Source of the DNA: Hyphomonadaceae bacterium UKL13-1
GTDB taxonomy: Bacteria; Pseudomonadota; Alphaproteobacteria; Caulobacterales; Aquidulcibacteraceae
Length of the DNA stretch: 64,000 nucleotides
Reading direction: 5' to 3'
NCBI GenBank assembly: GCA_001602435.1
Contig: CP012156.1
Location: forward strand, 640,001 to 704,000
Each line of letters starts with the position of its first letter. Within the stretch, counting starts at the first letter, position 1. The position numbers and the translations under genes are program-made. The notes below the pieces were generated by a model. That model made no database searches, was not told the DNA's origin, and worked only from the letters and a program-made list of their open reading frames with translations. Of the stretch, positions 18,872 to 42,050 are shown piece by piece.

Positions 18872-18960
18872 CGGCCAAGTTCTGCGGAAATGCGGCTAGT
18901 CCGCTTTGCGCCACGGGTTGCCGTTTAGGGCGGTTTAGCGGCTTATCGAAAGCAGACATT
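18872..18960 (+). repeat. Dispersed MITE-like repeat, right part, copy A
   Basis: Contains the internal words GGCCAAGTTCTGC, TGCGCCACGGGTTGCCG and TTTAGGGCGG and ends in TCGAAAGCAGACATT, closely matching the copy at 31786-31916. Any left end is too decayed to place. Confidence 0.7.
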
Positions 18961-19142
18961 CACGAGATGGTAGGATAGTTACACTTCAATACGGTTGATT
19001 TTCGAAAAACTTCTGGCTGGATTATGAGGGGCTGGGTCACCGTCGAAGGGGCCGTGGCATTGCGCCTATCCTCATCTTTGTCGGGACTTGGGCGCACCCG
19101 ACTAAACGGTGTCGGTAGCAACAAATTCTCTGCAATGGATCT

Positions 19143-19157
19143 GCAACATTTCCACAA
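19143..19157 (+). promoter_or_regulatory. Candidate response-regulator box upstream of cytochrome b561 gene
   Basis: GCAACATTTCCACAA here and GCAACATTTCCGCAA at 21686-21700 differ at one base. One precedes the first gene of the group and the other precedes the receptor gene, with the response regulator between them. The box is 49-63 bases from the start codon at 19206, suitable for promoter control. Confidence 0.55.
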
Positions 19158-19205
19158 CAAAGCGACAAATCCCTTGGTGCATTAGGGATCGAGGAGGAAA
19201 TGTTC

Positions 19206-19775: not shown

Positions 19776-19803
19776 CAAACAACGCTCATTAAGGCCCTTG
19801 CGT

Positions 19804-20520
19804 ATGACGACTGCAGCAATTATCCCTAACAGTGTGACGCTCGCCGGGGTCAAAATTCTGATTGTTGAAGACGAACCCGAAATAGCGGAGATCGTCGATG
19901 CGTTTTTTCGCCGCGAAAACGCCGATTGCCTCATTGTCGGAGATGGCGAAAGTGCGGTGGATAGTTCACGCTGGTGGCAGCCTGATATCGTCATCCTTGA
20001 TCTGGGTCTCCCCCGGCGTGATGGTATGTCGGTTTTGGCTCAATTGCGCGTTGGGCCAGTCCAACCCGGTGTCATCATCCTCAGTGCCCTCGGTGAGCCG
20101 ATCGACAAGCTGGCGGGGTTCCGGCTCGGGTGCGATGATTATGTCGTCAAACCTTTCGACCCACATGAAATCGTTGCGCGTGCCAAGGTGCTGGCGGGCA
20201 GGCAACGCCGCGAGGCGGCACACACCGTTCGGTCTTTTGGCAATATTCGGATCGATGTGGATGCGTTCTGCGCGTTCGTTGGACCCCAGCCCCTTGACCT
20301 GACGCCGACCGAATTCAAGTTGCTGGATCTGTTCGTCGAGCGGGGGGGCAGACTCATCACACGCGGCCAGATTGTCGATCTCGCGCTGGACGAGGAAGCG
20401 TTTGACCGCTCCGTCGATCCCCATATCAGCCGTCTACGCCAGAAAATAAAACGCCAGCCCGGCAGTGGCGTACGCCTCACCAGCATTCGCGGCCAAGGCT
20501 ATCGATTGGATCTCGTATGA
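19804..20520 (+). CDS. OmpR/PhoB-type response regulator
   Basis: 238 residues from the ATG at 19804. The receiver domain shows KILIVEDEPEIAEIVDAFF, the phospho-acceptor aspartate in DIVILDLGLPRRDG, the switch Ser in VIILSALGEP and the conserved Lys in DDYVVKPFD. The winged-helix output domain contains LTPTEFKLLDLFVERGGRLI and SRLRQKIKRQPGSG...IRGQGYRL. It overlaps the kinase gene by four bases (ATGA), so the two are translationally coupled. It likely controls the cytochrome and receptor genes that flank the pair through the box at 19143 and 21686. Confidence 0.95.
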   Translation: MTTAAIIPNSVTLAGVKILIVEDEPEIAEIVDAFFRRENADCLIVGDGESAVDSSRWWQPDIVILDLGLPRRDGMSVLAQLRVGPVQPGVIILSALGEPIDKLAGFRLGCDDYVVKPFDPHEIVARAKVLAGRQRREAAHTVRSFGNIRIDVDAFCAFVGPQPLDLTPTEFKLLDLFVERGGRLITRGQIVDLALDEEAFDRSVDPHISRLRQKIKRQPGSGVRLTSIRGQGYRLDLV

Positions 20521-21668
20521 TATTGGGTTTACGTGCGAGGATCGCGCTTAGCGCCATCCTCATGAGTGTGATCGCAGCACTGGTAGCGGCGTTGGCGCCC
20601 GACTATGTCTATAGTCTGCGCGACCAGCTATTCATGGCCAGTCTAGCACCTGCCGAGAAGATGCAATTGGGGCGCTTACTTGAAACATCTGGACAGTGCT
20701 CGCCGTTGGTTTACGACTTCAAGATGGATCACGGCTTTGCGCCTTGGCGACTGAATTACGGCTGGGCTTTAGGCGGACTTATCGGGTTGACCGCCATCTG
20801 TTGCGCCGGGTTTGCGGTCATCTCTGCAGGACGGATCGCGGCACCTATCGAGGCAATTGCCAGCAGCGCACGCAAAATCGCAACAGGTGACCGGCACGCC
20901 CCGGCACCAATTGGTCGGGGCGTCCCGCTGGAAATCGCCGCACTGCACCGCGACTTTACGGCAATGACCAATGCCTTGTCCGCTGCCGACAATGATGTGC
21001 GCATGCGTTCTGCCGCCATCGCCCATGAACTCCGCACACCTTTGTCAGTCTTGCGTGGCCGTTTGATCGGCGTGCAATCAGGTGTTTTCCCGCTTGACGC
21101 CACATTACTAAACGGTCTGTTGCGCCAGATCGGTCTTGTCGATCAGCTAGTCGCCGACCTCAATATGCTGGCGTCACCGCTGGGCATCGACATGCAGCTA
21201 GACCTCGAGCCTGTTGCAATGGACCGTCTCGCCGCGTCGGTCATTGAGACGTTGCAACTTGACGCAGCTGAACAGGGCAACACCTTGAAGTTGGTTGCCA
21301 CGCCGATTGTTGCACAGGTTGATCCTGGGCGCATTGAGCGCGCGTTAGTTAATCTGGTTGCCAACGCCATTCGTTATGCGCCGGGAAGCGAAATTCAAGT
21401 GTCTGTGCGCTCTGCCGCCGATCAAATCCTATTGTCGGTGCTCGACACTGGCCCCGGATGGCCCAGTGACGACCCACAATCTTTTGCTGCCGCCTTTGTT
21501 CGTGGCGACCAGTCACGATCCCGCCAATCGGGTGGCTCGGGGCTGGGCCTCGCAATCGTCACTGCCATCGCCCGCGCACATGGCGGATCATTGCGACTGA
21601 GCGCAGGGCAAGGTGGCGGCGCGCTCGCCGAAATCATCATCCCCATTGGCGGAGAAGGTAAAGCCTGA
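20517..21668 (+). CDS. Sensor histidine kinase (HAMP, HisKA, HATPase)
   Basis: 383 residues. Two membrane helices (about residues 8-28 and 81-102) bracket a small periplasmic loop of some 50 residues with one cysteine (SGQCSPLVYDF). A HAMP linker follows, then the H-box AAIAHELRTPLSVLRGRLI, N-box NLVANAIRYAPGS, G1 LLSVLDTGPGW and G2 GGSGLGLAIVTAIARAHGG. It is the partner of the preceding response regulator. The short sensor loop suggests detection of a small ligand or of membrane/redox state, and the neighbouring b561 and outer-membrane receptor hint at metal or redox stress. The signal is not known. Confidence 0.94.
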   Translation: MILGLRARIALSAILMSVIAALVAALAPDYVYSLRDQLFMASLAPAEKMQLGRLLETSGQCSPLVYDFKMDHGFAPWRLNYGWALGGLIGLTAICCAGFAVISAGRIAAPIEAIASSARKIATGDRHAPAPIGRGVPLEIAALHRDFTAMTNALSAADNDVRMRSAAIAHELRTPLSVLRGRLIGVQSGVFPLDATLLNGLLRQIGLVDQLVADLNMLASPLGIDMQLDLEPVAMDRLAASVIETLQLDAAEQGNTLKLVATPIVAQVDPGRIERALVNLVANAIRYAPGSEIQVSVRSAADQILLSVLDTGPGWPSDDPQSFAAAFVRGDQSRSRQSGGSGLGLAIVTAIARAHGGSLRLSAGQGGGALAEIIIPIGGEGKA

Positions 21669-21685
21669 ACCATCGTTAGCCGTTC

Positions 21686-21711
21686 GCAACATTTCCGCAA
21701 TTTTCCGCCAA
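21686..21711 (+). promoter_or_regulatory. Candidate response-regulator binding region before the receptor gene
   Basis: GCAACATTTCCGCAA (21686-21700) matches the box at 19143. It continues into a second, 11-base-phased TTTCCGCCAA, the tandem arrangement that OmpR-family regulators bind. It ends about 50 bases before the start at 21762. Confidence 0.55.
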
Positions 21712-21761
21712 CGCTGTTGCAGCTCTGACAAGTTATTGCGTCCCCAGAATTGGGAGCGCAC

Positions 21762-23789
21762 ATGAGACATCTAATCACCATCAGTATTGCCGCGACAATT
21801 GGGTTGTGCACCTCATCGAGTGCGCAAACGGCGTCGGAATCACCTGCTCGCGCGAGCTATCCTGCAGCATACTTCGCAGATATTCAGGCGCAGAACGCCT
21901 TCGATATGCTGGCCCGGGTCCCAGGTTTCACGCTGGTTGCGAGCGAAGACCTGCGCGGCTTTGGCGACGCGGCCGGCAATGTTCTGGTCAATGGCGCGCG
22001 GCCCGCGACTAAGGACGTCTCCCTGACCGAACTGTTGCGGCGCATTCCGGCACGCACTGTTGAACGCATCGACATGCTCGATGGAGCCGTCACTGGCCTT
22101 CAGGGCGGGGGCAGTCGGCTGGTGGCCAATGTCATCCTAAAGGCCTCCACGAGTAGCAGCGGTACATTGCGTCTGCGGGGCCAAACAACACAAGGGGGCA
22201 GGTTTGGACCATCCGCAGCCGGGTCGTGGCGCGGATCAATTGGCAGCGCCACCGTGTCAGCCAGTCTGGAAGCCGGAAACAAGTCGCTCGCGCGACTCGA
22301 AGGCCAACAGCGGCTAATTGATGGTAGCGGCGGGGTCGTCGAGGCTGGTCCTCTATTGGACCGTCGGCGCTACAATGACTATTCTGGCTCGTTGAGTATC
22401 GCCACCCCGATTGCCGGCATCAACACCACGTTGGCGACATCGCTACGGACAGATGACTTTAAGCGACGCCATCGTTTCACCGCTTTTGCGTCAGGCGCTG
22501 CTTTGCCGATCAGAACCCAGATCGAAGCTGAAAACTATCCTGGCCGCAGCGCCGAGCTGTCGCTCGAATTGACACGCCCTATCGGCCGCGGTGAAGCTAA
22601 ACTGATAGGCCTTAGAACATGGTCAAACAAAAAGGGCTCCTCGCTAGTCGGCGCAGAATTTCCTTCCGGGGCTATTCAGAGTTCGCTTTATACATCCAAT
22701 GATGACCTGTCCGAGAGCATTTTGAGAGCGACTTGGGCACCGCGTTGGCCAAAGCTTGCCGTCAGCGCGGCATTTGAAGGCGTGCGGACGACCTTAGTCT
22801 CAAACACTGAGTTCGTTCAGATCGACAACAAAATTGCAACACCGCTTGAGGCCGGCCGCACCAATGTTGGGGAAACACGCGGCTCAGCAGCTTTGTCGGC
22901 AACCTGGACAGGCATCGACAAGATATCGGTTGAGGGTGCCATCGCCTTTGAAGTATCGCGAATTACCCTAGCCGAGCCGCTACGATCTTCCAATACTTAC
23001 CGCTTTTTCAAACCCCGCGTCGTGGCTGCATGGAACCCAACCAGCCAAATGACCCTGAGCTTGCAGGCCGAACGCAAAGTCGGCCAACTTAACTTTGGCG
23101 ATTTCGTAGGGGCACAACAAGTCGCCGACGGCTCCTCAACCCAGACGAACAGTGCTCTCCAGCCTTCGCAAACCGATGGGCTGCGTCTGACGGCTGAACG
23201 CCGTTGGGGCACACGGGGCAGCGTCAGCATCACCTTCGTGAGCGAACGCCTAACCAATGTGGTGGACATCGTGCCAGTCGGTGATGGCCAAGGCGTTGGC
23301 AATCTGCCTTCGGCCAGCAGTTTCGGGGTCGATTTACTTGCTACAATCCCGCTTGGCTCTTTGCTAGATGGTGCAGAACTGACAGTGGATGCAGCTTGGC
23401 GAGAAACCTCGGTGCAAGATCCGTTCAATGGCGCGACGCGGCAATTACAAAATGCCGAGTTCGCCGGTACGACGATCAACTATCGTCAAATCATCAACCC
23501 GCGCTTCAGCTATGGCGCGGCAGTCAGATATGACCCGCCCTATCGACTTTTTCGCAGCCAGTTGAAAAGTGAGTTTGAGCTTGGGCCAGACTTTTCGATC
23601 TTTAGCGAATGGAACATCTGGCAAGGGACCAAGATGCGCGTCGAAGCCAACCGGCTGTTCGGCCAACGCGTTGATCGCGAACTGACCCGCTATAAGGGAC
23701 TGCGCGGCATTGCACCAATCAGCAGCACCGAGTTTCGCGATCGCACCAGCAGCCCAATTTTCGCGCTTCAAATCGAGAAAACCTTCTGA
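21762..23789 (+). CDS. TonB-dependent receptor-like outer-membrane protein
   Basis: About 675 residues from the ATG at 21762, with GGAG six bases upstream. A signal peptide ends near SSSAQT. Residues 25-130 form a plug domain: NAFDMLARVPGFTLVASED, GNVLVNGARPATK, and the IPARTVERIDMLDG segment. The rest is a long series of amphipathic beta strands ending in an aromatic residue (FALQIEKTF), as required for barrel insertion. No clear TonB box is seen, which fits the small receptor-like branch of the family. Gene order with b561 and the two-component system, and the shared upstream box, suggest a single regulon. Confidence 0.85.
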   Translation: MRHLITISIAATIGLCTSSSAQTASESPARASYPAAYFADIQAQNAFDMLARVPGFTLVASEDLRGFGDAAGNVLVNGARPATKDVSLTELLRRIPARTVERIDMLDGAVTGLQGGGSRLVANVILKASTSSSGTLRLRGQTTQGGRFGPSAAGSWRGSIGSATVSASLEAGNKSLARLEGQQRLIDGSGGVVEAGPLLDRRRYNDYSGSLSIATPIAGINTTLATSLRTDDFKRRHRFTAFASGAALPIRTQIEAENYPGRSAELSLELTRPIGRGEAKLIGLRTWSNKKGSSLVGAEFPSGAIQSSLYTSNDDLSESILRATWAPRWPKLAVSAAFEGVRTTLVSNTEFVQIDNKIATPLEAGRTNVGETRGSAALSATWTGIDKISVEGAIAFEVSRITLAEPLRSSNTYRFFKPRVVAAWNPTSQMTLSLQAERKVGQLNFGDFVGAQQVADGSSTQTNSALQPSQTDGLRLTAERRWGTRGSVSITFVSERLTNVVDIVPVGDGQGVGNLPSASSFGVDLLATIPLGSLLDGAELTVDAAWRETSVQDPFNGATRQLQNAEFAGTTINYRQIINPRFSYGAAVRYDPPYRLFRSQLKSEFELGPDFSIFSEWNIWQGTKMRVEANRLFGQRVDRELTRYKGLRGIAPISSTEFRDRTSSPIFALQIEKTF

Positions 23790-23966
23790 CCGACCAATCC
23801 GAAACATGCACTTGTTGTGGGGAGAGCCGTTGCCACGGGCGCGCTCGCAGCGCGCACTTAAATCTTAAGCCTCCCTCCACGCTATCTCCTCCGACCCTCC
23901 ATAAATCGCGGCTACAACAAACCATAAACCCGCTCCTCCCTGAGCTTCACACCAAGGATAAAAAAC

Positions 23967-24047
23967 ATGATCAACCTTATTGTCGCCGCCTGGCTTTCCG
24001 TCCTCACTTCTGGCCTTCTGGGCATGGCTGCTTCTGACCGCCATTAG
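23967..24047 (+). CDS. Small hydrophobic protein of 26 residues
   Basis: ATG at 23967 with AAGGA at 23954-23958, then a 26-codon frame: MINLIVAAWLSVLTSGLLGM followed by AASDRH and TAG. It would form one membrane helix with a polar C-terminus. A strong terminator follows at 24118-24146, so a short transcript of its own is plausible. Too short for homology claims; it could also be a non-coding RNA carrying a chance frame. Confidence 0.5.
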   Translation: MINLIVAAWLSVLTSGLLGMAASDRH

Positions 24048-24117
24048 AGCAACGCCTTCCGTATTCGGACCGGCATCGTCAGCCCCACGCCTCCAACGTC
24101 CTCACGATGCCCAACCT

Positions 24118-24146
24118 AGGGCCGGCTCAGCCGGCCCTATCTTTTT
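24118..24146 (+). terminator. Strong Rho-independent terminator
   Basis: AGGGCCGGC and GCCGGCCCT pair perfectly around TCA and are followed by ATCTTTTT. The structure ends the short transcription unit containing the 26-codon frame; the receptor gene stop lies 330 bases further upstream. Confidence 0.9.
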
Positions 24147-24419
24147 GCCCGATCCTTTTGTTTGCGGTCTTGTGCGGTCCAAGCCTTGGATGGCGCGCTC
24201 TACACTCTGCCCGCAAACATACACGTATTTCGGGATGCGCGCAGAGGGGCAAGAGAGGTCTTGCGGCGGTCATTGCGGGTCGTTTAAAAAAGCGAAGACG
24301 CGGCCCGAGCATAGCTTCACTTGGCAAAACACAGTGGCGCTCCTAGTGATGTCCCATCCGTTGGGACGGACGACCCCTCCCCCACTCGACTGGGGCCAAG
24401 AGGCTAAACTATCACTTGC

Positions 24420-26609
24420 TCAAGCAGCTTCAAACGAGCGCCCTGCATCGTCGCGGCAGTGTTGCCGGAGGTGAATCGTGAACGTGGAGCCAGCACCCAA
24501 CGCGCTCTCAACCTGGATAGATCCGCCCAAGAGATAGAGCAGCTTCTTGGTAATCGCTAGGCCGAGGCCTGTGCCCTCGGCCCGGCGGCTCAAAGAATCG
24601 TCGACCTGTATGAATTCGCTGAACAGACGGGCTTGTTGCTCCGGAGACAAGCCGATGCCCGTGTCCGAGACCGAAATTGCAATGCCAAGCGCACCGTCGT
24701 GTTGAACGGGCCGCGCGGAAACCGTGATCCGCCCCGCCTGTGTAAACTTGCAAGCGTTGGAAACAAGATTGAACACGCATTGGCGCAGGCGCTGGGCGTC
24801 CGTAATGATCGTGCCAAAGGACGGATCAATCTCTAGAGCAAACGCATTTCCGTTTCGGGCTGAGAGCGGTGCCGCCAGGTCGGCGACCTCCTGCAAGAGC
24901 TCCACAAGCGAGGTTTCCCCCAGCACCACTTCCAGCTTGTCGGCCTCAATCTTGGCGAGATCCAGCACATCGTTAATCAAGCCAAGAAGGTGGCGTGCGG
25001 AGCGGTTGATCTTTTCGCAGTCGCGTGCATCGACGGTGCCACCTTCCAGGATTTCCTCGCGCATCAGCTCAGAATACCCGATCACTGCATTCAGTGGCGT
25101 GCGCAGTTCATGGCTCATTGTGGCGAGGAAACGGGACTTCGCGGCGCTTGCTGCGCGAGCGGCTTCCAGCTCGCGCTCGGTGGCATGCAAATCCGTGACG
25201 TCTAGGAAAGCTGTGGAGCAGCGCGACCAATCCGCCTCGGCCCCTGGTAAGGCGGTTGAAACGACCACACACTCAACGAGACGTCCATCGCAGGTCTGCG
25301 CCTTTCCGCGAAATGTCATCTGGTCCGGCAGGGGGAAGTCTTGGTTGGCATTGTCGAGCCCCTCAAGGGCCGCTGCCACGAAATCGGCAGAGAAGATCTC
25401 CTTTTGTCGGCGCTGCAAATCCCCCAAGGATCCAGCAAAGAGCTTCAACGCCGCCGCATTGGCCTTGCCGATCTGAGCGTGACCCATCAGTTCAACGAGG
25501 GTTGTGGGGTTGGTCTTGCCCCAAACTGACGGCGCTTGTCCCAATGCCTGAGCCCGGCGCAATACCTCGCGCAGCCAGCCGAGATTAGTCTCGAACAGCG
25601 CCAGCGGCGACTGGGAAAAGTGTGCGGCCGCCAAGCGACCAGCAGCCTCTGCGTCAGAAATCGCTTGCAATTCTGCGGTGCGGCTGGCGGTGACGTCGAT
25701 AAAATGGACCAGTGTACGCGACCAATCCTCTTCATGGCCAGGCCATGGGCGCGACCAGTGGATGACGTGGCGCGCACTGCCATCAGGCAGTTCGACCGGC
25801 GAGAGCCAAGGGCGTTGCAGAGACTTTCGCCGTAGCGATTCAATCCAAGCATCGACCGCGTCAATGCGGTTTTGCCCGCTCACAGTCAGGAACGGGTCTC
25901 CGATCAGCTCTGCTTCGCTACGCTTAAATAGTTTCTCTGCCGCTGGATTGACCCGCCGGATCCGGATGAAATCATGCGCACTGTCAATACCGGCGCGCAA
26001 CTCCGAGGGCGCAGGGCCAGTGGCCAGGAAAGCCTTGATGCTGCCAGCCATTTCCATCATATCATATTCGATCGTCGGGATCGGATTGGTCTCAAACCAG
26101 ATATCGGACTCGCGGCGCTGTTCGGTGATGTCGGTGATCAGGTTGGCCCATTGCCGCGTGGCACCTGGCTCGGCCTGAGGCAGCGGGCGCAGCTTCAACA
26201 CACCGTAGCGGATGGCCCCATCCGGGCGGACATGCTGAAAGCGCCAAGAAAAGCCCTCATCGCCCTGGGCAAAGGCGCGGAATACCTCCCGTGCGCTGAC
26301 CATATTAAAAGCGTCCGCTGAAATCTGAGGCCAGGCCGCCTTCAGGTCGTCTTCCGCGAAACCGAAGAACGCGCACGCCGCCAAATTGGCACGGACCAAG
26401 GCATTTTTGGCATGCGCACCTGCCAAGCGATCTAAAAGGGCACCACGATCGGGATCAGGCTCCGCCGCCTCAGCATTAAGCGCCTCTGCAAGAGGGGTAG
26501 AGTGCGTCCAAACCAAAGGTGCCGGGTTTTCATCAAACCAAAAGCCAGCGGGAGGAGACACAAGTTCAGACTGAACCATGGTACCTTGGTTTGTATTTGT
26601 GCTGAGCAT
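24420..26609 (-). CDS. Multi-PAS hybrid-free sensor histidine kinase
   Basis: 729 residues, ATG at 26609. There is no membrane segment, so it is cytoplasmic. At least two and probably three PAS-type modules occupy the first 470 residues (for example WRFQHVRPDGAIRYGVLKLR near 110-130 and WFETNPIPTIEYDMM near 168). The kinase core follows: H-box FLATMSHELRTPLNAVIGYS near 494-512, N-box FNLVSNACKFTQAG, DTGIGLSPEQQ and GTGLGLAITKKLLYLLGG. It ends without a receiver domain and has no adjacent response regulator, so it is an orphan. The first eleven residues and about 220 bases upstream recur at 41358-41585 in front of a different gene. Confidence 0.9.
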   Translation of the reverse strand: MLSTNTNQGTMVQSELVSPPAGFWFDENPAPLVWTHSTPLAEALNAEAAEPDPDRGALLDRLAGAHAKNALVRANLAACAFFGFAEDDLKAAWPQISADAFNMVSAREVFRAFAQGDEGFSWRFQHVRPDGAIRYGVLKLRPLPQAEPGATRQWANLITDITEQRRESDIWFETNPIPTIEYDMMEMAGSIKAFLATGPAPSELRAGIDSAHDFIRIRRVNPAAEKLFKRSEAELIGDPFLTVSGQNRIDAVDAWIESLRRKSLQRPWLSPVELPDGSARHVIHWSRPWPGHEEDWSRTLVHFIDVTASRTAELQAISDAEAAGRLAAAHFSQSPLALFETNLGWLREVLRRAQALGQAPSVWGKTNPTTLVELMGHAQIGKANAAALKLFAGSLGDLQRRQKEIFSADFVAAALEGLDNANQDFPLPDQMTFRGKAQTCDGRLVECVVVSTALPGAEADWSRCSTAFLDVTDLHATERELEAARAASAAKSRFLATMSHELRTPLNAVIGYSELMREEILEGGTVDARDCEKINRSARHLLGLINDVLDLAKIEADKLEVVLGETSLVELLQEVADLAAPLSARNGNAFALEIDPSFGTIITDAQRLRQCVFNLVSNACKFTQAGRITVSARPVQHDGALGIAISVSDTGIGLSPEQQARLFSEFIQVDDSLSRRAEGTGLGLAITKKLLYLLGGSIQVESALGAGSTFTIHLRQHCRDDAGRSFEAA

Positions 26610-26830
26610 TTCTAGCCCTTACTGCTAAACACTCCCCTACTTCGAGCGGGGCGCGCCCACTGTGCACGCCCGGTAACATTACCGATGAGTTCTAAATGTT
26701 TCATTGAAGAATATAGTTAATATTATCTTTAAGTAATACATAATGTTACTATCTTTGGTATTTGCCAGCAACTCTGCATCAGACAATAATCAGAATCATT
26801 ATATATTGTTCTTAAAAGATATTCTATATA
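26610..26830 (-). promoter_or_regulatory. Upstream region of the PAS kinase, twin of 41359-41585
   Basis: Blocks shared with the second copy include ACTTCGAGC, the palindrome GGTAACATTACC (GGTAACGTTACC in the twin), ATCTTTGGT, AGACAATAATCAGAAT and TGTTCTTAAA, in the same order and nearly the same spacing. Overall identity is roughly 70 percent by eye. IS66 has inserted 17 bases beyond its far edge. Confidence 0.75.
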
Positions 26831-26877
26831 CTAGACCTGCGCCTTAAGTATCCATCCGGCGAGGGCCACGGCGTGGC

Positions 26878-28527
26878 TTAGGGCGCTGGTTTCCAGTTCC
26901 AAGGTGCGAGTTCATGTAGGCGTGATGCTGGCCATGAGGGCATGTGGGCGAGCAGGTGTGCGAGCCAAGCTTGGGGATCGATGTTATTGAGCTTGGCAGT
27001 GCTGATGAGGGTATAGATCAGGGCGGCGCGTTCGCCTCCGGCTTGTGAGCCTGCGAACAGCCAGGCTTTGCGGCCAAGGGCGGCTGGTCGCAGGGAGCGC
27101 TCTGCGGCATTGTTGCTAAGGCAGGCCCGGCCATCGGTGAGAAAGACGCTAAACGCGGGCTGTCGCTTGAGCATATAATCCATGGCAGCGGCAACGGGTG
27201 CGTGGCGGGATAATTTTTGACGTTGTTCGCTCATCCAGTCGAACAGGTTGGCGACCAGTGGGGCGGACTGGCTGGTGCGGGTGGCGAGGCGCTCGTTGGC
27301 GGTTGCACCATTGATCTCGCGTTCGATGGCGAAGAGTTCGTCGATCTTCTTGACAGCTTGTAGGGCAAGGGGTGCAGCGGCCTGCACAGCTGACCCTGCC
27401 TTGTCTTTCTGGGGACCCTTCTTGGGCAGGCTGGCGATCTCGAAGAACTTGCGCCGGGCATGGGCCCAACAGGCCGCCTCGATGAACGGGGCAGGGCTTC
27501 GGGCTTGCTCGAACAGATGGTTATAGCCAGCAAAGGCATCGGCTTGCAGGATGGCACCACCATGGCACTTCAGATGTGCCTTCGGGTGATCGCCAGACCT
27601 GGTATCGGAGAACTTGAACAAAACTGCTGGCGGGTCAGCACCCCCGAACGGTCGGTCATCGCGCACATAGGTCCACAATCGTGCGGTCTTTGTCTTACCC
27701 TTATCGAGTAATGGGACTGGCGTGTCATCACCATGGATGCGACCCGCAGCCAAGACATGGGCTTCGATCAGTTCAGCCATGGGGGTAAGCGCGTGGGCAC
27801 AGGCACCGACCTGATCGGCCAGCGTCGATAGCGCGATGGGAACCCCTTCGCGGGCATAGCGCTCGGCTTGCCGGTTGAGCGGCACATGTTGGCCGTACTT
27901 CTCATACAAGATCATGGCCAGAAGTGATGGGCCAGCCCGCCCTCGTGCAATCGCATGAAACGGGGCTGATGCCTGGGAGAAGCCTTCGCACGCCCTGCAG
28001 GAGAAGCGCTCGCGGACATGCTGGACTACCTTCCAGCTGCGGGGGATCACTTCGAGCGTCTCTGTGACGTCTTCGCCGACCTTGACCAGTCTGTGTGAGC
28101 CGCAGTGATCACAGGCGCAGGGGGATGGTTCGACCACGCGTTCACGCGGCAGATGCTCTGGTAGAGGCGCACGCGCTGGCTTCTTGCGTTCAAAGCCTGC
28201 GACCTTAACCACACCACCATCAATACCGGCATCAGCAGCTGCTTCCTCGGCGACGATCTCGGCCTGGGTGGCATCGCCAACCGCTTCGACTAAGGCCAGC
28301 TCAAGCTGGTCGATGATCTGGCGCGAGCGTTCGGCGCTGCGGCCATAGAGTTGATGCCTGAGCTTGGCGATCTCGAGTGCTTGATGGGCGGCCAGTTCCT
28401 TGAACGCCAGAGCCTCTGCAAGCTGGGCCAGAACTTCTGCCCGGGCCAGTCGCTCGGCAACCAGTTCTGCCTTCATGGCAGCCATCTGAGCCCTCAGGGC
28501 TGCTATGTCATCAGGGCGTTCCAACAC
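26878..28527 (-). CDS. tnpC: IS66 transposase TnpC
   Basis: 549 residues, read from a GTG at 28527. Typical IS66 large transposase: a coiled-coil N-terminus (LRAQMAAMKAELVAERLARA), the zinc-finger-like CACDHCGSHRLVKVG, and the DDE core with RIHGDDTPVPLLDKGKTKTA, AGYNHLF and the C-terminal CLSNNAAERSLRPAALGRK. It ends with the family tail LHELAPWNWKP. Intact, third gene of the element. A decayed tail of another IS66 transposase is present at 55940-56140. Confidence 0.95.
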   Translation of the reverse strand: MLERPDDIAALRAQMAAMKAELVAERLARAEVLAQLAEALAFKELAAHQALEIAKLRHQLYGRSAERSRQIIDQLELALVEAVGDATQAEIVAEEAAADAGIDGGVVKVAGFERKKPARAPLPEHLPRERVVEPSPCACDHCGSHRLVKVGEDVTETLEVIPRSWKVVQHVRERFSCRACEGFSQASAPFHAIARGRAGPSLLAMILYEKYGQHVPLNRQAERYAREGVPIALSTLADQVGACAHALTPMAELIEAHVLAAGRIHGDDTPVPLLDKGKTKTARLWTYVRDDRPFGGADPPAVLFKFSDTRSGDHPKAHLKCHGGAILQADAFAGYNHLFEQARSPAPFIEAACWAHARRKFFEIASLPKKGPQKDKAGSAVQAAAPLALQAVKKIDELFAIEREINGATANERLATRTSQSAPLVANLFDWMSEQRQKLSRHAPVAAAMDYMLKRQPAFSVFLTDGRACLSNNAAERSLRPAALGRKAWLFAGSQAGGERAALIYTLISTAKLNNIDPQAWLAHLLAHMPSWPASRLHELAPWNWKPAP

Positions 28528-28591
28528 CTCAGAAGAGAATCACGAAACGGTGTCAAACACCAGCAAAAATGGGCACATGGAGCAGGAAATA

Positions 28592-28939
28592 TCAGCCCGC
28601 AGCTGTTGGTCTCCACGTCTTCTGCGGATGACGCCAGTCGATACCTTCGAGCATATATCCAAGTTGACCAGGCGAGATCGACACCACACCATCAGCCGGG
28701 CTCGGCCAGATGAACCGGCCCCGCTCCAGTCGCTTGATATAGAGCGAGCAGCCCAGCCCATCGTACCACAACACCTTCACACTGTGGCCAGCTCTGCCCC
28801 GAAACACGAACAGGTCCCCGCCATGGGGATCACGGCCTAAGCCACCCTGCACCATGGTGGTCAGGCTGTTCATGCCCTTCCGCATATCGGTGACGCCTGA
28901 CGCCAGCCATACCCGCACACCAGACGGAACCGGGATCAT
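28592..28939 (-). CDS. tnpB: IS66 accessory protein TnpB
   Basis: 115 residues, the normal IS66 Orf2 length. Recognised by MIPVPSGVRVWLASGVTDMR, DLFVFRGRAGHSVKVLWYDG and the C-terminal RFIWPSPADGVVSISPGQL. Its ATG overlaps the stop of tnpA (ATGA). It is required for transposition in IS66 elements, but its biochemical role is unsettled. Confidence 0.95.
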   Translation of the reverse strand: MIPVPSGVRVWLASGVTDMRKGMNSLTTMVQGGLGRDPHGGDLFVFRGRAGHSVKVLWYDGLGCSLYIKRLERGRFIWPSPADGVVSISPGQLGYMLEGIDWRHPQKTWRPTAAG

Positions 28940-29358
28940 CGTAAATCCTCCAGCGTGGTGACCACTGCTGCCAGCGTGGCCGCATCAAAGCCCGGGTGAA
29001 CCTCAACTCGCCGAGCTCCTGACAACACAATGACCAGTGGGGCACTTACCGGTGCTGGCGAAGGTTCACATAAACCCCCATGGTCGCCAGTCGCAACTAC
29101 CGGAACAAATGCCGGTGGCTCCGAAATCCGGCCAACCCCACCACCATCACCACGAGCCTGCGCACGCCAAACGTAGATCTGACTTGGATGGACCCCATAG
29201 CGGCGCGCAAGCTGAGTAATCACTGCACCAGCCGCATAACTCTCCGCCACAACCGACAGCTTGAAATCATCGGAAAAGCGACGCCGACGGCCCAGATCAA
29301 CAACATCAAGTCGACCCCCATATCCCGCTGCTATCGTCTGTAACGTCTCCATACGCAC
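28936..29358 (-). CDS. tnpA: IS66 accessory protein TnpA
   Basis: 140 residues with an N-terminal helix-turn-helix (RRRFSDDFKLSVVAESYAAG, then AVITQLARRYGVHPSQIYVW), as in IS66 Orf1. First gene of the element, starting 54 bases inside the right inverted repeat. It overlaps tnpB by four bases. Confidence 0.93.
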   Translation of the reverse strand: MRMETLQTIAAGYGGRLDVVDLGRRRRFSDDFKLSVVAESYAAGAVITQLARRYGVHPSQIYVWRAQARGDGGGVGRISEPPAFVPVVATGDHGGLCEPSPAPVSAPLVIVLSGARRVEVHPGFDAATLAAVVTTLEDLR

Positions 29359-29516
29359 AGTAACTAGCCCAGTTCATACCTCACCGGTATGTGGCCCTCG
29401 CCGAATGGATACCGCCTTAATGCCTCTCGTTTATTATGAGAGTGCTGTTTGCTGATGCCGCCGTGTTTGGGGTTAACCAAAATTTTGCCTTAAGTTTGAA
29501 AATGAATCGGTCACAA

Positions 29517-29765
29517 TCAACCAAGTCGGAGCTTCATGTAATGTGTCGCCATTGCAAACGACATAACGATCAAGTTGGAAATCGTCACAGGCCCACTGCC
29601 AATTGCCACCCCACATGCTGACCAGAGCACCGTTCCAACCGCTACAAGGGCTACCGCTGTCAACGACAGATCGTGCGTTTGGCGTGTTTGCAACGCGCGG
29701 GTGGCTTGCGGCAAGAAAGCACCGCCCGACGCTGCCGACGCTGCTTAGCCTAGTATCTATATCAA
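29517..29765 (-). pseudogene. SemiSWEET (PQ-loop) sugar transporter remnant with two internal stops
   Basis: The frame translates as a SemiSWEET protein: FLPQATRALQTRQTHDLSLT with the PQ motif at the end of helix 1, then helix 2 and helix 3 (SNLIVMSFAMATHYMKLRL). The part upstream that should form helix 1 (ILG, then AASAASGGAFLPQ) is in the same frame but interrupted by TAG and TAA. About 85 residues is normal for the family, and the total here fits. It is read as a decayed gene, not a short real protein. It lies just outside the IS66 element. Confidence 0.65.
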
Positions 29766-29889
29766 TAGCCGCGTTTCACCTCGATGCTGTGCTGAGCTGC
29801 AGCTTTATGACGGGCCTTAATCGCACACAAGTGGTCGACTAGGATCGTAAAGGTCTTAAGTTTTCGCTAGAAAAGGGCAGTCTGGAAAC

Positions 29890-29974
29890 GGCCAGTTCTG
29901 TTGAAATGCCGCCGGTCCCAAATGCGCCAAGGGTTGCCGTTTCGAGTGGGTTGGGGGGTGCTTGAAAGCGGACG
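29890..29974 (+). repeat. Dispersed MITE-like repeat, right part, copy B
   Basis: Shares GGCCAGTTCTG, CAAATGCGCCAAGGGTTGCC and the end CTTGAAAGCGGACGT with the reference copy at 31786-31916. Non-coding; about 70 bases from the alpha/beta hydrolase stop. Confidence 0.75.
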
Positions 29975-31785: not shown

Positions 31786-31916
31786 GTCCGCTTTCACCCT
31801 CATCGACGCCCAAAGCAGACCATCCCCTTTCGGCCAAGTTCGGCCAAAATGCAGACAGTCTCAAATGCGCCAGAGGTTGCCGGTTAGGGCGGGTTCGGGG
31901 CTTCTCGAAAGCGGAC
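31786..31916 (+). repeat. Dispersed MITE-like repeat, most complete copy (reference)
   Basis: 131 bases with terminal inverted repeats GTCCGCTTTC (31786-31795) and GAAAGCGGAC (31907-31916). Internal landmarks: AAAGCAGACCATC, TTTCGGCCAAGTTCGGCC, TCAAATGCGCCAG, GGTTGCCGGTTAGGGCGGG. No open frame is conserved between copies. Size and ends fit a miniature inverted-repeat element, but no transposase with matching ends was found in the window. Confidence 0.8.
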
Positions 31917-31973
31917 ATAGAAAAGTTGCTCTGCAATCCGAAATTTGGACTATACTGAATTGGAGTTTTTTCC

Positions 31974-35519: not shown

Positions 35520-35566
35520 GTCCGCTTTCGCTCCAAGCCCGCCTTAAAGCAGACCATCTCCTTTCG
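35520..35566 (+). repeat. MITE-like repeat copy C, left piece (cut by IS91-type element)
   Basis: Begins with the inverted-repeat end GTCCGCTTTC and continues AAAGCAGACCATCTCCTTTC, which aligns with 31786-31835. The match stops at 35566 and resumes at 38225 on the far side of the IS91-type element. Confidence 0.75.
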
Positions 35567-35891
35567 TGAAGGGTTTCGGATGCTTTTGGGCGTCCGAAAG
35601 TGTCCGGAGAACGAATCTTTGTTGTTGAGGGCTGTGGCTATGGGGATTTCGGTTGGGGGCGTGGTTTGTTGGGGCTGCTTGGGGCGTGGACTGGCTGGGC
35701 TGAGGCTGACATCTGTGTATTGCGTGGTGTCTGTATCGGCTTGAGAAGGCGCATTTCAGACTGGATCGTACCATTTTCCCACTTGTTTGGTGTGCTGTTT
35801 ATGGCTTTTGGAGCGTTAGGCACGCGGGCGGCATATCGCCAGATGCGGGTACATTTGGCGGTGAGCTGCGGTTGTATTTGCGCAAGCCCGA

Positions 35892-37100
35892 TCATGACGG
35901 CCTCCCATGGTTTGATGGCCCTGTTGGTGGTGCGCGGGGTTGGGCTTTGCACTGGAAGATGTCGGTAATGACCATGTCGCCCCCACAACAGGGGCAGATA
36001 AGCCAAGGCTTTTTGGGCGCGGTATCATCTTGGGGCGTGTCATCAGGCTTTTGCGGCGAGCTCTGAGATACACCTAAAAGCGCGCGAATGGCCATGATCT
36101 CCTTGACCCGGACGCCACTGGACAAGAAGCCGTAGTGGCGGATGCGATGAAAGCCTTTGGGCAGGACATGGAGTAAGAAGCGGGTGATGAACGCGTCAGG
36201 GGTGAGCGTCATGGTCTGTTGCTGGTCGCCAGTTGGGCGGCGGTAATCCTTATAGGCAAAGGTGATGCCCTGATCCTTGATGGCGATGAGCCGCTTGTTG
36301 GAGATGGCGACACGGTGGGTGTAGCGGGCAAGATAGGCCAGAACCGCGTCTGGCCCCGAGAAGGGGGCCTTGGCGTAGACCACCCACTTCTTAGCGCGCA
36401 TGGACGCTATAAAGCTGGCAAATAGCTTGGGATCAGCCAAGGGGGCGTGATCACCAAAGAAGCGCAACTGACCGTCACGATGTAGGGCCATGAGCTTGTC
36501 CAAGAACAAGCGCCGAAATAGCTTGGACAAGACCCGCACGGGCAGAAGGAACTTCGCGCGTGATCGGATCCAGCGTTTACCATCCTTGCTGAGGCCACCT
36601 CCTGGCACGATCATATGAATGTGGGGATGATGGGTGAGAGCTGACCCCCATGTATGCAGGACAGCCGTGATACCGATCCTGGCCCCCAAATGCTTGTGGT
36701 CAGCGGCAATGGTCATCAGGGTCTGTGAGGCGGCTTTGAATAAGAGGTCATAGATGACGGTCTTGTTGTACCAAGCGATATCGCCAATCTCGCTAGGCAG
36801 GGTGAAGACCACATGGAAATAGCCAATGGGCAATAGGTCCTCTTGGCGCTTGGCCAGCCACTCGCGCGCCGCTGCCCCCTGACACTTGGGACAATGGCGG
36901 TTGCGACAGCTGTTGTAGGCGATCTTGGTATGATCACACTTGGTACAGCCTTCGACATGACCGCCAAGGACGGCGGTCCTGCAAGACACGACGGCTGACA
37001 TGACCTTGAGTTGGCTTAGGCTGAGATGGCCCTTGTGGGCCTTCCGGTAAGCATCGCCAAAGCGGGCCAAGATATCAGCCACCTCCAAAGAGGGGCGCAT
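35892..37100 (-). CDS. IS91-family HUH transposase
   Basis: 402 residues. The N-terminal zinc-binding region is CTKCDHTKIAYNSCRNRHCP, and the HUH nuclease core shows SALTHHPHIHMIVPGGGLS near residue 155. Further family boxes are LARYTHRVAISNKRL and YKDYRRPTGDQQQT. The C-terminus (PWLICPCCGGDMVITDIF) carries a second Cys pair. It nicks DNA through a tyrosine and moves by rolling-circle transposition in characterised relatives. Intact. Confidence 0.95.
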   Translation of the reverse strand: MRPSLEVADILARFGDAYRKAHKGHLSLSQLKVMSAVVSCRTAVLGGHVEGCTKCDHTKIAYNSCRNRHCPKCQGAAAREWLAKRQEDLLPIGYFHVVFTLPSEIGDIAWYNKTVIYDLLFKAASQTLMTIAADHKHLGARIGITAVLHTWGSALTHHPHIHMIVPGGGLSKDGKRWIRSRAKFLLPVRVLSKLFRRLFLDKLMALHRDGQLRFFGDHAPLADPKLFASFIASMRAKKWVVYAKAPFSGPDAVLAYLARYTHRVAISNKRLIAIKDQGITFAYKDYRRPTGDQQQTMTLTPDAFITRFLLHVLPKGFHRIRHYGFLSSGVRVKEIMAIRALLGVSQSSPQKPDDTPQDDTAPKKPWLICPCCGGDMVITDIFQCKAQPRAPPTGPSNHGRPS

Positions 37101-37113
37101 GGCAACTCAATGG

Positions 37114-38088
37114 CTAGAACTGAACCTGTCGGACTTCCTCAGGCTCTTGGCCAAACTGGTTGAGGCCGATCTTGCTGTGCTGACCCCTATCAGGATCACA
37201 GCCGCCTAGAGAGGCCAGCACTTTATCAAGCGGGCTGATGATGGCGCGCACGGTACGGGTCGCAACTTGGGTGTAAAAGGCGGTGTTCTCCAGCTTGGCA
37301 TGTCCCAACAGGACTTGGATCACGCGGATATCTACCCCGTCCTCCAACAAATGGGTGGCGAAGCTATGGCGCAAGGTATGGGGGCTGACGCGCTTAGTGA
37401 GGCCAGCGGCCTTCGCTGCCTCATGGACAATGCGACCAAGGTGGCGGGTCGACATGTGGTTATCAATATCCATGCCAGGAAACAGCCATCCGTCAGGCAC
37501 CATGACACCTTTGCTGTGGCCCTCAAGCCACCATGCACGCAGAAGTGTCAGAAGATCTTGGGACAGGATGGCGTTGCGGTAGCGGCCACCCTTACCCCGC
37601 TCAACGCGGATCACCATACGCTGGCTATCAATATGGCCAACCTTGAGGGCTGCCACTTCGCCAGCCCGCAGGCCTGCACCATAAGCCACACTCAACATAG
37701 CACGGTGCTTCAGGCATGTTGTTGCCGCCAAGAGCGCGCCAACTTCATCAGGGCTAAGCACGCTGGGCAACTTGCGCGGTTGAAACACCCGCACCAGACG
37801 GCGCGATAAATCAGGCCGGTCCAATGTCATGGTGAACAGAAACCGCAAAGCTGCAATCCGGGCGTTGGTTGCCCCAGTTGGCACACCCTTCTGCGATAAA
37901 TGGATCTGATAGGCTCGCACGTCTTCTGGGGTCGCGGTCTCTGGTGATCTACCCAGAAACTCTGCAAAGGCGCTGACAATGCGAATATAGCCCCGCTGGG
38001 TCTTATCTTGGAACCCCCGCAGGGTCATGTCTTCGATCATGCGTTGGCGCAAAGATGTGGCTGGGGTCGGTAAAAAGGCTCTGGTCAT
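37114..38088 (-). CDS. Tyrosine recombinase/integrase of the IS91-type element
   Basis: 324 residues, XerD-like plan: a SAM-like N-terminal domain (LRQRMIEDMTLRGFQDKTQR) and a catalytic domain with Arg in AYGAGLRAGEVAALK, the HTLRHSFATHLLEDG box, VLLGHAKLENTAFYTQV with the nucleophilic tyrosine. Its stop is 13 bases from the transposase start, so they share a transcript. Integrase genes of this kind accompany a subset of IS91 elements; whether the protein resolves intermediates is not established. Confidence 0.93.
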   Translation of the reverse strand: MTRAFLPTPATSLRQRMIEDMTLRGFQDKTQRGYIRIVSAFAEFLGRSPETATPEDVRAYQIHLSQKGVPTGATNARIAALRFLFTMTLDRPDLSRRLVRVFQPRKLPSVLSPDEVGALLAATTCLKHRAMLSVAYGAGLRAGEVAALKVGHIDSQRMVIRVERGKGGRYRNAILSQDLLTLLRAWWLEGHSKGVMVPDGWLFPGMDIDNHMSTRHLGRIVHEAAKAAGLTKRVSPHTLRHSFATHLLEDGVDIRVIQVLLGHAKLENTAFYTQVATRTVRAIISPLDKVLASLGGCDPDRGQHSKIGLNQFGQEPEEVRQVQF

Positions 38089-38224
38089 GACTGGTCGCTC
38101 CTATCTTGCTAAAGGAGCCACCATCGTCAGAGCCTAAACCCACCTCTTCAATCAAAATCGCAATCAACCCAAATCCATGCCCCCAGACCACCACGCACAA
38201 ACCTCCCGCGGAGCGGGTTCGTTC

Positions 38225-38267
38225 TTCGGCCAAGTTCTGCCAAAGAGCAGCCTGTCCGAGATGCGCC
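38225..38267 (+). repeat. MITE-like repeat copy C, middle piece
   Basis: TTCGGCCAAGTTCTGCC, then AGCAGCCTGTCCGAGATGCGCC. It continues the piece at 35520-35566 and is cut again at CGCC by the IS1182-type element. Confidence 0.8.
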
Positions 38268-39853
38268 GATATTGTTGAAAAACTCGTCGTTGTCAGGGTT
38301 TGCGGGTCATGATTCACTGGTTTCATTGATTTGCGGGGGATCTGGTGATGATGGGACATCAAGAAGTATCGGCCCAGTTGTTTTATGACTTTCAGATTGA
38401 GGATCATGTTCCAGCTGACCATATTCTGCGGCGCATTGATGCTCATTTAGACCTTGAGTGCGTTCGTTCGGCCCTGAAGCCCTTTTATAGCAAGACGGGG
38501 CGGCCATCGATTGATCCTGATTTAATGATGCGGATGCTGATCGTTGGATATGCGATGGGCATCAGGTCAGAACGTAGATTGTGCGAGGAGGTCCACCTTA
38601 ACCTTGCCTATCGCTTGTTCTGCAAGCTTGGCCTAGACGGCAAAGTTCCCGATCACTCGAGTTTCTCCAAGAACCGCCATGGTCGGTTCCGCGAGAGTGA
38701 TGTCTTGCGCCACCTCTTTGAGACGGTGGTTGCACGTTGTCTGTCAGAAGGACTTGTTGGCGGTGAAGGCTTTGCGGTTGACGCCAGTCTAATCGCGGCC
38801 GACGCGAACAAGCAGCGCTCCGTGTCGGGTGAACAATGGCGATCTGGGCAAGACCTAGAGATGGCGGGACGCGCGGTCCAAGAGTATCTGGCTGTCCTTG
38901 ATCACGAGGCCTTTGGCGCAGCCTCACCGGTTCCACCAAAGTTTGTTGCAAAGTCCGATCCTGCTGCACAATGGACCGGTGCCCATAAAGGTCATGCCTT
39001 CTTTGCTTATGCGACCAACTATTTGATCGATACCGATCATGGCGTCATTGTTGATGTTGAAGCTACACGCGCAATTCGCCAGGCTGAAGTTGGCGCATCG
39101 CGCACGATGATTGATCGTACCGAAGCTCGATTTGGCCTAAAGCCCAGTTATCTGGCAGCCGATAGCGCTTATGGCTCAGCCCATAACCTAGCTTGGTTGG
39201 TGAAAGAGCGAGATATCGCACCTCATATTCCTGTCTTTGACCAGTCCATACGAACAGACGGAACATTCTCGCGATCTGACTTTACTTGGGAGGCCGAAAG
39301 AGACCGCTATACCTGTCCCGCTGGCAAAGAGTTGGTGCAGTTCCATCGCACTTACCAAACGCCACGATCTGGCATCACCAAAGCCGGCCAAAGACTATAT
39401 CGAGCGAGCACAAAGGACTGCCGTGTCTGCCCGCTCAAAGAACAATGCTGTCCCAAAGCCAAAGTTCGAAAAATCCCCCGCGACCTCAACGAAGACTCCC
39501 GCGATATCGCCCGCCTCATCGCAACCACGCCTGCCTATGCCAGATCACGTGATCGCCGCAAGAAAGTCGAGATGCTCTTTGCTCACCTAAAGCGTATTCT
39601 CAAAATGGGCAGGCTAAGATTACGAGGCCCAAACGGAGCCAGAGACGAGTTCCTACTCGCAGCTACAGCCCAAAACCTGCGAAAACTAGCCAAACTGCGA
39701 CCAAATCCACATAAACGATCAGCCTTTGCCGCCTAATCTACCTCAAAAGAGGTACTCCACCGACCTTTAAGCGAAAATCGATCAGCAATCGCAAACCAAC
39801 TGCGCTGCCCAAGCACCCAATCTCGTCTAAACTTCGAGTTTTTCAACAATATC
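38268..39853 (+). mobile_element. Complete IS1182-type insertion sequence
   Basis: 1586 bases with 19-bp perfect terminal inverted repeats GATATTGTTGAAAAACTCG (38268-38286 and complement at 39835-39853), flanked by the 4-bp duplication CGCC (38264-38267 and 39854-39857). It carries one intact transposase gene. It inserted in the dispersed repeat copy C, only 43 bases from the IS91-type element. Confidence 0.92.
38345..39736 (+). CDS. IS1182-family transposase
   Basis: 463 residues. The N-terminal domain (LFYDFQIEDHVPADHILRRI) and VPDHSSFSKNRHGRFRESDV are typical of the family. Catalytic acids fit GEGFAVDASLIAADANKQ, PSYLAADSAYGSAHNLAWL and the C-terminal RRKKVEMLFAHLKRIL (DDE). A cysteine-rich insert RVCPLKEQCCP precedes the last block. 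Start is the ATG at 38345 or one of the next two codons. Intact. Confidence 0.93.
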   Translation: MMMGHQEVSAQLFYDFQIEDHVPADHILRRIDAHLDLECVRSALKPFYSKTGRPSIDPDLMMRMLIVGYAMGIRSERRLCEEVHLNLAYRLFCKLGLDGKVPDHSSFSKNRHGRFRESDVLRHLFETVVARCLSEGLVGGEGFAVDASLIAADANKQRSVSGEQWRSGQDLEMAGRAVQEYLAVLDHEAFGAASPVPPKFVAKSDPAAQWTGAHKGHAFFAYATNYLIDTDHGVIVDVEATRAIRQAEVGASRTMIDRTEARFGLKPSYLAADSAYGSAHNLAWLVKERDIAPHIPVFDQSIRTDGTFSRSDFTWEAERDRYTCPAGKELVQFHRTYQTPRSGITKAGQRLYRASTKDCRVCPLKEQCCPKAKVRKIPRDLNEDSRDIARLIATTPAYARSRDRRKKVEMLFAHLKRILKMGRLRLRGPNGARDEFLLAATAQNLRKLAKLRPNPHKRSAFAA

Positions 39854-39904
39854 CGCCAACAGCTGCCGCTTAATGCGGTCCTGCGGCGTTTCGAAGCCAG
39901 ACAT
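39854..39904 (+). repeat. MITE-like repeat copy C, right piece
   Basis: CGCCAACAGCTGCCGCTTAA, then TGCGG and TTTCGAAGCCAGACATT. It aligns with 31867-31918 of the reference copy once the IS1182-type element is removed and CGCC collapsed. Confidence 0.75.
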
Positions 39905-39994: not shown

Positions 39995-41119
39995 CTACCA
40001 AGGCTGGGAATAGGATTGGCGGGGCGCAAGCCCCATCTCAAATTCGCTTAGAATGTCGCGGAATTCTTCCGAAGTCGGCAACTCTGTGGAACCGCCTTTG
40101 AAACGATAGACCCAAAAGGAGGAGATGTGCGAAATCATGCCCATCGAGTGACCGAGGTCCAAGAAAAAAATCGGGGCTTCCAGAAGGAACCTGCGAAAGG
40201 CTGCGGTGTTGCCACGCTGGACAAGATCGGCAAAAGCATCATCATAGAGCGCGAGAACCTTGCTACAATTGCGGGCCGCGTCCCGGATCCGGTTACGTAT
40301 GGAAGTCTTCAGCACGCGGATTTCCTCGCGCGTGGCAGCATCATTTCGTCCTGACGGTTTCATCTGATCCATTTCCTGCGTCACGCGAATCAGGCTTTGG
40401 ATCATTTCTGAGAATTGCCATTTGTAGTAGATGAAGCCCTTCCAGCTGAAGATGCCTTGGGTGAATTGGTCACCTTGTAGCCCCAATGTCTCTCGCAACG
40501 GGTCGAGGAGTGAATCAGCATTTGCAGACAGAAGCGCGTCGGCCAACTTGCCAACCATGCCACCGCTGCCGCTGGCATTACCCCTTGTGGAGCCAAAAGC
40601 CATACGAATGAGGGGGGCCATCTCAGCGCTGGTAAAGTTTTGCATGCGACTGGTGTCAGCGGGGGATATCGAGAAATAGCATTCCGCAGGTTTGTGATTG
40701 TTCCGACGCAATTGTTCCCGCACCAAAAACGGATCGAGTGAGGGTAGGTCGTTCAACAGGCTTAAGACTAGAAAGTCTCTCTCGAGTTCAAGTTCACGAT
40801 CGCCAACCACGTCGCAAATCGCTTGTCGGAACCCTTTTTGGTTCACAAAAATAGACCGCCCACCCAATTCCAGATTGTCAAAATCGAGTGGGAAAATAAT
40901 CTTCGTCGCGACAGTGGTTGAAGTTGGCAGAAGGTAAACCTCATCGCGTCGTAGTCGGTGCTTGACTAAGATTGATCGGTTTAAGAGGGCATCCGTAAAA
41001 AGCGGAGCCTTTTTGCGCATCGGATCATTTGGGTAGCGCTTTGCGACCAGATTTAAATTAAGCACCCGACTGGTAGAAGCCGAAGTCGCGAGAGCGGCTA
41101 AGTTACGTAACCCTGACAT
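39995..41119 (-). CDS. Protein of unknown function behind a duplicated promoter region
   Basis: 374 residues from the ATG at 41119, which has AAAGG seven bases before it; the frame is open to an ATG at 41170 that overlaps the stop of an upstream leader frame (TAATG), so coupled initiation there is the alternative. No family is recognised. The protein is soluble, mixed alpha/beta, with a Gly/Ser-rich turn (GSTRGNASGSGGMVGKLADA) in the middle and long helices after it (LKTSIRNRIRDAARNCSKVL). There is no signal peptide, membrane helix or HTH. The upstream region is the twin of the one preceding the PAS kinase at 24420, so the two genes may be controlled alike. Confidence 0.7.
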   Translation of the reverse strand: MSGLRNLAALATSASTSRVLNLNLVAKRYPNDPMRKKAPLFTDALLNRSILVKHRLRRDEVYLLPTSTTVATKIIFPLDFDNLELGGRSIFVNQKGFRQAICDVVGDRELELERDFLVLSLLNDLPSLDPFLVREQLRRNNHKPAECYFSISPADTSRMQNFTSAEMAPLIRMAFGSTRGNASGSGGMVGKLADALLSANADSLLDPLRETLGLQGDQFTQGIFSWKGFIYYKWQFSEMIQSLIRVTQEMDQMKPSGRNDAATREEIRVLKTSIRNRIRDAARNCSKVLALYDDAFADLVQRGNTAAFRRFLLEAPIFFLDLGHSMGMISHISSFWVYRFKGGSTELPTSEEFRDILSEFEMGLAPRQSYSQPW

Positions 41120-41169: not shown

Positions 41170-41358
41170 TTAGTAACAGCCGGTGAAAATAGGCCTAAGC
41201 AATTCAATAAATTTTGTATAAAGACGAGGTTCTGCTAGGGAAACGTGTATTTGCGCAGCACGAAACAACGAAAGACAACCACTCCAACTCCGGTCGTCGT
41301 TACATTCGTTGGTTGCAGATTTGCGCATGGCACCTTGGTTTGTGTTTACGCTGAGCAT
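41170..41358 (-). other. Leader-like frame sharing its first 11 codons with the PAS kinase
   Basis: 62 codons beginning MLSVNTNQGAM; the kinase begins MLSTNTNQGTM. After this point the two differ entirely. Its stop overlaps an ATG of the downstream frame (TAATG). It may be a truncated kinase start left by recombination, or a real leader peptide coupled to the unknown gene. Confidence 0.5.
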
Positions 41359-41585
41359 TTCCAACCATTGCTACTAAGCACTCGCCCACTTCGAGCACGG
41401 CGTATCCACAGTGAACGCTGGGTAACGTTACCAACCGGCTCTAAACGGTCCATTGAGAAATAGGGTCACTATTACCCGCAAGTCAAAGAAAACTGTGATT
41501 ATCTTTGGTGTTTGTCAGTAAATAGGTAACAGACAACAATCAGAATGATTAGATGCTGTTCTTAAAGGGTATTTTATAAAATTCT
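41359..41585 (-). promoter_or_regulatory. Upstream region, twin of 26610-26830
   Basis: Same ordered blocks as the kinase upstream region: CCACTTCGAGC, the perfect palindrome GGTAACGTTACC, TTATCTTTGGTGTTTG, CAGACAACAATCAGAATGAT and GCTGTTCTTAAA. Retention of spacing over more than 200 bases while the genes behind differ suggests functional constraint. Confidence 0.75.
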
Positions 41586-42050
41586 CAGAATTATCCACCG
41601 TGCCTGCGAATGATGAGTTGTTTACCTTTTTTCTAAAATTTTCACGGTGCAGATGCAATGCTACTCGTAAGCTATATTTGATCAAGATAAACATTTGAAT
41701 GGATCAGCAGCGCGCAACAAGTATGCTCTCAGAAGCCTTTTTCTTTCGGAGAATATGGTCGCTTGGGATTGTCCGTGTTCGACTTCCACATCCTAGAAAC
41801 CAGATCATCCGCATTCGGCTAGTTTTGTCTTAAACCCGTCAGTCCCCCATCCGCCACGGATGTCATTGGCTTCAGGGGAAGTAAAGTTCAAATGTAGACA
41901 TTGGCCTACTCTGCCGCATTCGAACTTTCGTTTGCCGAGCGCCGCCTGTGCCCAAACCTGCTTTCACTTAATCATAGCGTATCGGGATAAAGCGGTGTCC
42001 CGGACAGGCTTCGGCCCAACGACCGCGCAACTCCCCTTGGAGTAAGCGCT
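41586..42050. other. Non-coding stretch with a weak repeat trace
   Basis: About 465 bases without a supported gene. AAACCAGATCATCCGCATTC near 41798 matches a word at 58262 in another repeat copy, so a decayed dispersed repeat probably lies at about 41795-41910. Confidence 0.4.

Follow-up and report, generated by a model that had tools for sequence, protein, structure and literature searches.

Two similar upstream regions in the window (the whole 64,000-nucleotide stretch of DNA that was analysed) are very probably paralogous 5′ ends of "MLS-type" flagellin genes, one of them captured by a sensor kinase gene and the other left as a stump by a deletion. Each of them is homologous to the sequence upstream of a bona fide flagellin gene, which establishes their flagellin ancestry. 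Neither site carries a complete flagellin gene: the kinase body follows at 26609, and the flagellin body is deleted at 41326. At the former site, the flagellin 5′ end is fused in frame to the kinase gene. The case appears to be a natural, multi-species promoter capture that placed the promoter region, leader, and start codons of a flagellin gene on a selected, apparently spreading sensor kinase, and it suggests that a structured flagellin leader RNA has so far gone uncatalogued.

Flagellin origin of the two regions and their leader RNA

The genome (G000) is a single 3.50-Mb contig with 14 flagellin genes and belongs in or near Aquidulcibacter (Caulobacterales). The two regions, at 26577 to 26828 and 41326 to 41578, both on the minus strand, aligned over 255 bp with 75% identity (E = 1.8e-26). 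The original prediction, which had described them as twin upstream regions of two unrelated genes, was thus right about their similarity, the kept spacing between their blocks, their old duplication, and their common promoter ancestry. It was also right about the palindrome GGTAAYRTTACC, which occurs exactly twice in the window (unstranded, as GGTAACATTACC at 26672 to 26683 and as GGTAACGTTACC at 41421 to 41432), compared with 0.00 copies expected by chance; genome-wide, it is present at the two kinase copies and the 41-kb region and nowhere else.

A DNA search of the same genome for further copies of the block returned six loci: the two in the window, another copy of the kinase at 537355, and the flagellin loci at 171779, 287103, and 496329. 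The pair is not unique, since the same block lies 5′ of flagellin genes. These three flagellins all begin MLSVNTNQGAMVALQTLN, and the same upstream region together with the first 11 codons (MLSVNTNQGAM) is found in front of true flagellin genes elsewhere in the genome. Ten loci genome-wide have an MLS/MIS-NTNQG start, seven of them with a flagellin body, two with a kinase, and one as a remnant. The flagellin-derived region before the kinase (26575 to 26828, minus strand) consists of promoter region, leader, and 11 codons and, over 252 bp, matches the 5′ region of the flagellin at 171779 (G000:C1:171779) with 79% identity. The remnant at 41 kb (41326 to 41737, minus strand), comprising upstream region and 11 codons, shows 72 to 74% DNA identity to the upstream region of the same flagellin (72% over about 416 columns). 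Orthologues of this flagellin in three other genomes (G003, G007, and G008) retain these upstream blocks, and two of them have GGTAATGTTACC. An MLS-type flagellin 5′ end comprises a promoter region, a structured 5′ leader RNA, a ribosome-binding site, and the first 11 codons.

The shared block consists of a flagellin promoter region and this leader, which has two covarying hairpins. In an alignment of 23 leaders, 96.8% of the hairpin cells were paired, and 40 double-sided changes were counted against 14.7 in shuffles, with none of 500 shuffles reaching the score. Although such a shuffle test can be inflated by related sequences, shifting the hairpin columns by one to three, a sliding control that preserves relatedness, abolished the covariation signal. 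The palindrome makes an additional, less general stem in the 171779-type leaders. A covariance model (R1) recovered 25 leader copies in eight of the nine genus genomes: 20 are 5′ of flagellins (for two of these, the contig ends so soon that no more than the flagellin start is visible), four are 5′ of the kinase, and one is at the 41359 remnant. The same model, with the filters used, found no leader in 32 other Caulobacterales genomes, and an Rfam search at gathering cut-offs returned rRNA and tRNA matches only and no leader family. The conserved hairpins were found by R1 in all copies, with one mismatch in hairpin 2 of the kinase leaders, including the window copy (26610 to 26709, minus strand; 93.7 bits and covariation counts), while the remnant copy (41359 to 41458, minus strand; 69.2 bits) is degraded and the weakest of the 25.

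The kinase fusion and the module that carries it

The kinase gene (24423 to 26609, minus strand) encodes a PAS/HisKA/HATPase_c sensor kinase of 729 aa, residues 1 to 11 of which are flagellin-derived, its frame opening MLSTNTNQGTM. Here an intact gene, HisKA and HATPase_c included, continues in frame from a foreign 5′ end, which is not the case at 41358. The kinase would probably be both transcribed and translated from flagellin signals, a natural promoter capture combined with a translational fusion, and flagellin-type expression of the kinase is likely. Among the 61 genomes searched, close kinase copies were present only in G001 (97%) and G004 (99%), both with the same flagellin start, and no close orthologue lacking this 5′ end was found. 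That the fusion ran from flagellin to kinase is therefore an argument from parsimony, the leader being located before flagellins in 8 genomes and before the kinase in 3. With a dN/dS of about 0.2 in comparisons with G001, the kinase protein is, by this measure, under purifying selection.

The kinase belongs to an 8.5-kb module, encoding a cytochrome b561, a response regulator, a sensor kinase, a TonB receptor, and the PAS kinase, that occupies 18899 to 29974 (unstranded) and is duplicated, minus an IS66 insert, at 529645 to 538147 of the same genome. Positions 18899 to 26847 are 99.81% identical to 529645 to 537593 (7949 bp), and the homology picks up again past the IS66 insert at 29413 to 29974 (93% over 562 bp). 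The insert, an IS66-family element (26848 to 29412, minus strand) just upstream of the flagellin-derived region, has an 8-bp target duplication (CGCCTTAA) and is missing from the other kinase copies. Each module edge falls inside a dispersed intergenic repeat of about 86 bp with 16 matches genome-wide; its copies in the window are at 18872 to 18959, 29889 to 29973, and 31831 to 31918. Fourteen of the 15 differences between the kinase segment copies fall in 26493 to 26832, i.e., the kinase 5′ end and leader, a cluster that may reflect gene conversion of the remainder or a mixed history.

The G000 and G004 modules share 99.28% identity over 4042 bp, compared with 83.7%, 84.1%, and 81.4% at three other loci, and those of G004 and G001 share 96.5%, compared with 82.8% at one other locus; these values indicate horizontal transfer involving the G004 lineage. 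The gap between G000 and G001 is small (96.4% compared with 89.9% and 94.4% at other loci), so vertical descent is possible for this pair. Going by these identity levels, the module carrying the fusion, besides being duplicated within the genome, would have moved between Aquidulcibacter species. It is conceivable, though less likely than not, that a genus-specific structured leader RNA controls flagellin synthesis and that a mobile sensor-kinase module captured this whole unit, by which the horizontally spread kinase would be made only in flagella-building cells.

The flagellin remnant and the 374-residue protein gene

At 41 kb, the flagellin homology stops at 41326, and the homology between the window and G001 starts at 41330, at a point that in G001 lies about 285 bp beyond the flagellin stop. 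This deletion joint (41326 to 41330, minus strand) connects flagellin codons 10 and 11 (GCCATG) to the downstream sequence, with a CCAT microhomology common to both sides. The order on G001 contig C158 is flagellin codons 23 to 274, a terminator, the 374-residue gene (with one internal stop), and, 3 kb further on, the fused kinase; compared with this order, the homology limits indicate that both the body of the flagellin gene and its terminator are gone from the window. The G001 flagellin (L083 2447-3352) is itself without its first 22 codons, continuing into foreign 5′ sequence, and adjoins the tyrosine recombinase gene of an IS91-type element. Several of the relatives are draft metagenome assemblies, in which contig ends limit what can be said about them. 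Homology between the 374-residue genes of the window and G001 extends 115 bp further upstream than that with the paralogue at 3113512 (90% identical), an argument for the two occupying the same locus. Comparison with this sister genome suggests that a deletion of about 1.1 kb eliminated the terminator along with the flagellin body, so that only the 5′ stump is left before the 374-residue gene.

The 374-residue protein (39998 to 41119, minus strand) belongs to an uncharacterised, multi-copy family with five copies in this genome and members in many Caulobacterales. It gave no convincing Pfam, PHROG, or NCBIfam match, and a PDB fold search with its structure model (mean pLDDT, 81.8) gave no match better than E = 0.46. 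Its frame starts at 41119, or at 41170 as a 391-residue form, and differs from that of the ATG at 41358, from which the protein had been assumed to start. The first 11 codons (MLS[T/V]NTNQG[T/A]M) are indeed common to both regions and in frame with the kinase, but the 374-residue protein does not begin with them. Instead, the flagellin ATG at 41358 opens a 62-codon frame (41170 to 41358, minus strand) whose stop at 41170 shares bases with the start codon of the 391-residue form (TAATG), so that translational coupling is conceivable but unproven.

Some features of the surroundings were also recorded. In three genus genomes, one copy of the 374-residue family follows a flagellin on the same strand at a distance of 240 to 430 bp. 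The window carries an IS91-type transposase and a tyrosine recombinase at 35546 to 38155; in G004, a 96% copy of this element sits upstream of the kinase, and in G001 the truncated flagellin borders directly on a related element. An IS1182 element at 38265 to 39856 has a 99.9% identical counterpart (L008 11070-12661) that follows the flagellin at 171779 at a distance of about 4 kb.

Alternative readings and known systems

According to the original prediction, a dedicated regulatory region would place the kinase and the 374-residue protein in one regulon. The similarity behind it is genuine, with palindrome and spacing kept, and with the flagellin body and terminator gone, read-through from the remnant into the 374-residue gene would be possible, although its translation would not proceed from the flagellin start, with which the gene is out of frame. 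However, the same block precedes true flagellins in 8 genomes, the 374-residue gene still has about 210 bp of native upstream DNA between the remnant and its start, its four paralogues in the genome are all without the leader, and the remnant is the lowest-scoring leader. Since the shared block derives from the 5′ end of a flagellin gene, we rejected a purpose-built common regulon, which we regard as most improbable. The 41-kb copy is a flagellin stump and the most degraded of the 25 leaders, and it does not follow that the two genes are linked in function. The lesson of this case is that a common upstream block does not have to signal a common regulon.

A different challenge concerns the kinase side, where the flagellin 5′ end could be a functionless fossil, the kinase being expressed from another signal and starting at Met11. 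The kinase leader differs from that of G001 at 5 of 100 positions, which is about the synonymous rate (dS, 0.067) and hence gives no sign of strong selection on the leader, with 100 bases offering little power. The kinase upstream region has altered versions of two flagellin blocks, GACTC and TTAACCAT, and an AAGG is located 4 nt before the Met11 codon, where translation could start as an alternative to codon 1. Nonetheless, the leader, the ribosome-site region, the ATG, and the frame are retained in all four kinase copies across three genomes, and we consider a fossil unlikely. It is more doubtful still that the flagellin 5′ end acts as a recombinogenic or mobile cassette joined at the same GCCATG (codons 10 and 11), perhaps by way of the IS91-like element near the loci. 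The two joints do lie within about 5 bp of one another in the flagellin frame, and both G000 and G004 have IS91-type transposase and tyrosine recombinase genes close to the loci, while G001 has them right beside its truncated flagellin; yet the 41326 joint is a plain CCAT microhomology, the kinase joint may be just the kinase's own ATG, and no further leader fusions were found in 41 genomes. The reading that we prefer is one flagellin 5′ end captured by the kinase and another left behind by a deletion.

Structured 5′ leaders are known in front of alphaproteobacterial flagellin genes, such as the FlbT-bound fljK leader in Caulobacter and the flg-Rhizobiales RNA. The leader described here is likewise structured and precedes flagellin genes, but it has no Rfam match and was found only in this genus. 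With respect to the promoter, we looked for TTAACCAT or TTAA-N7-TTAA near −35, a motif taken from CtrA-activated flagellar promoters (PMC6180460). Four flagellin orthologues have the CtrA-like TTAACCAT upstream of the leader as a candidate site, whereas the kinases have TTAACTAT at this position and the remnant, in which TTAACCAT is absent, has GTGACCCT; a sigma-70 consensus scan of the remnant gave no match on the relevant strand. The probable expression of the kinase from flagellin signals may involve a CtrA-type promoter. Promoter capture by gene fusion has been described in the wrinkly spreaders of Pseudomonas fluorescens (PMC4395868), in which a signalling gene likewise came under the promoter of an upstream gene through an in-frame fusion by rearrangement. 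Those fusions arose from laboratory-selected deletions, and their expression was measured, whereas the present one is natural, has a flagellin donor, is duplicated, and occurs in three species.
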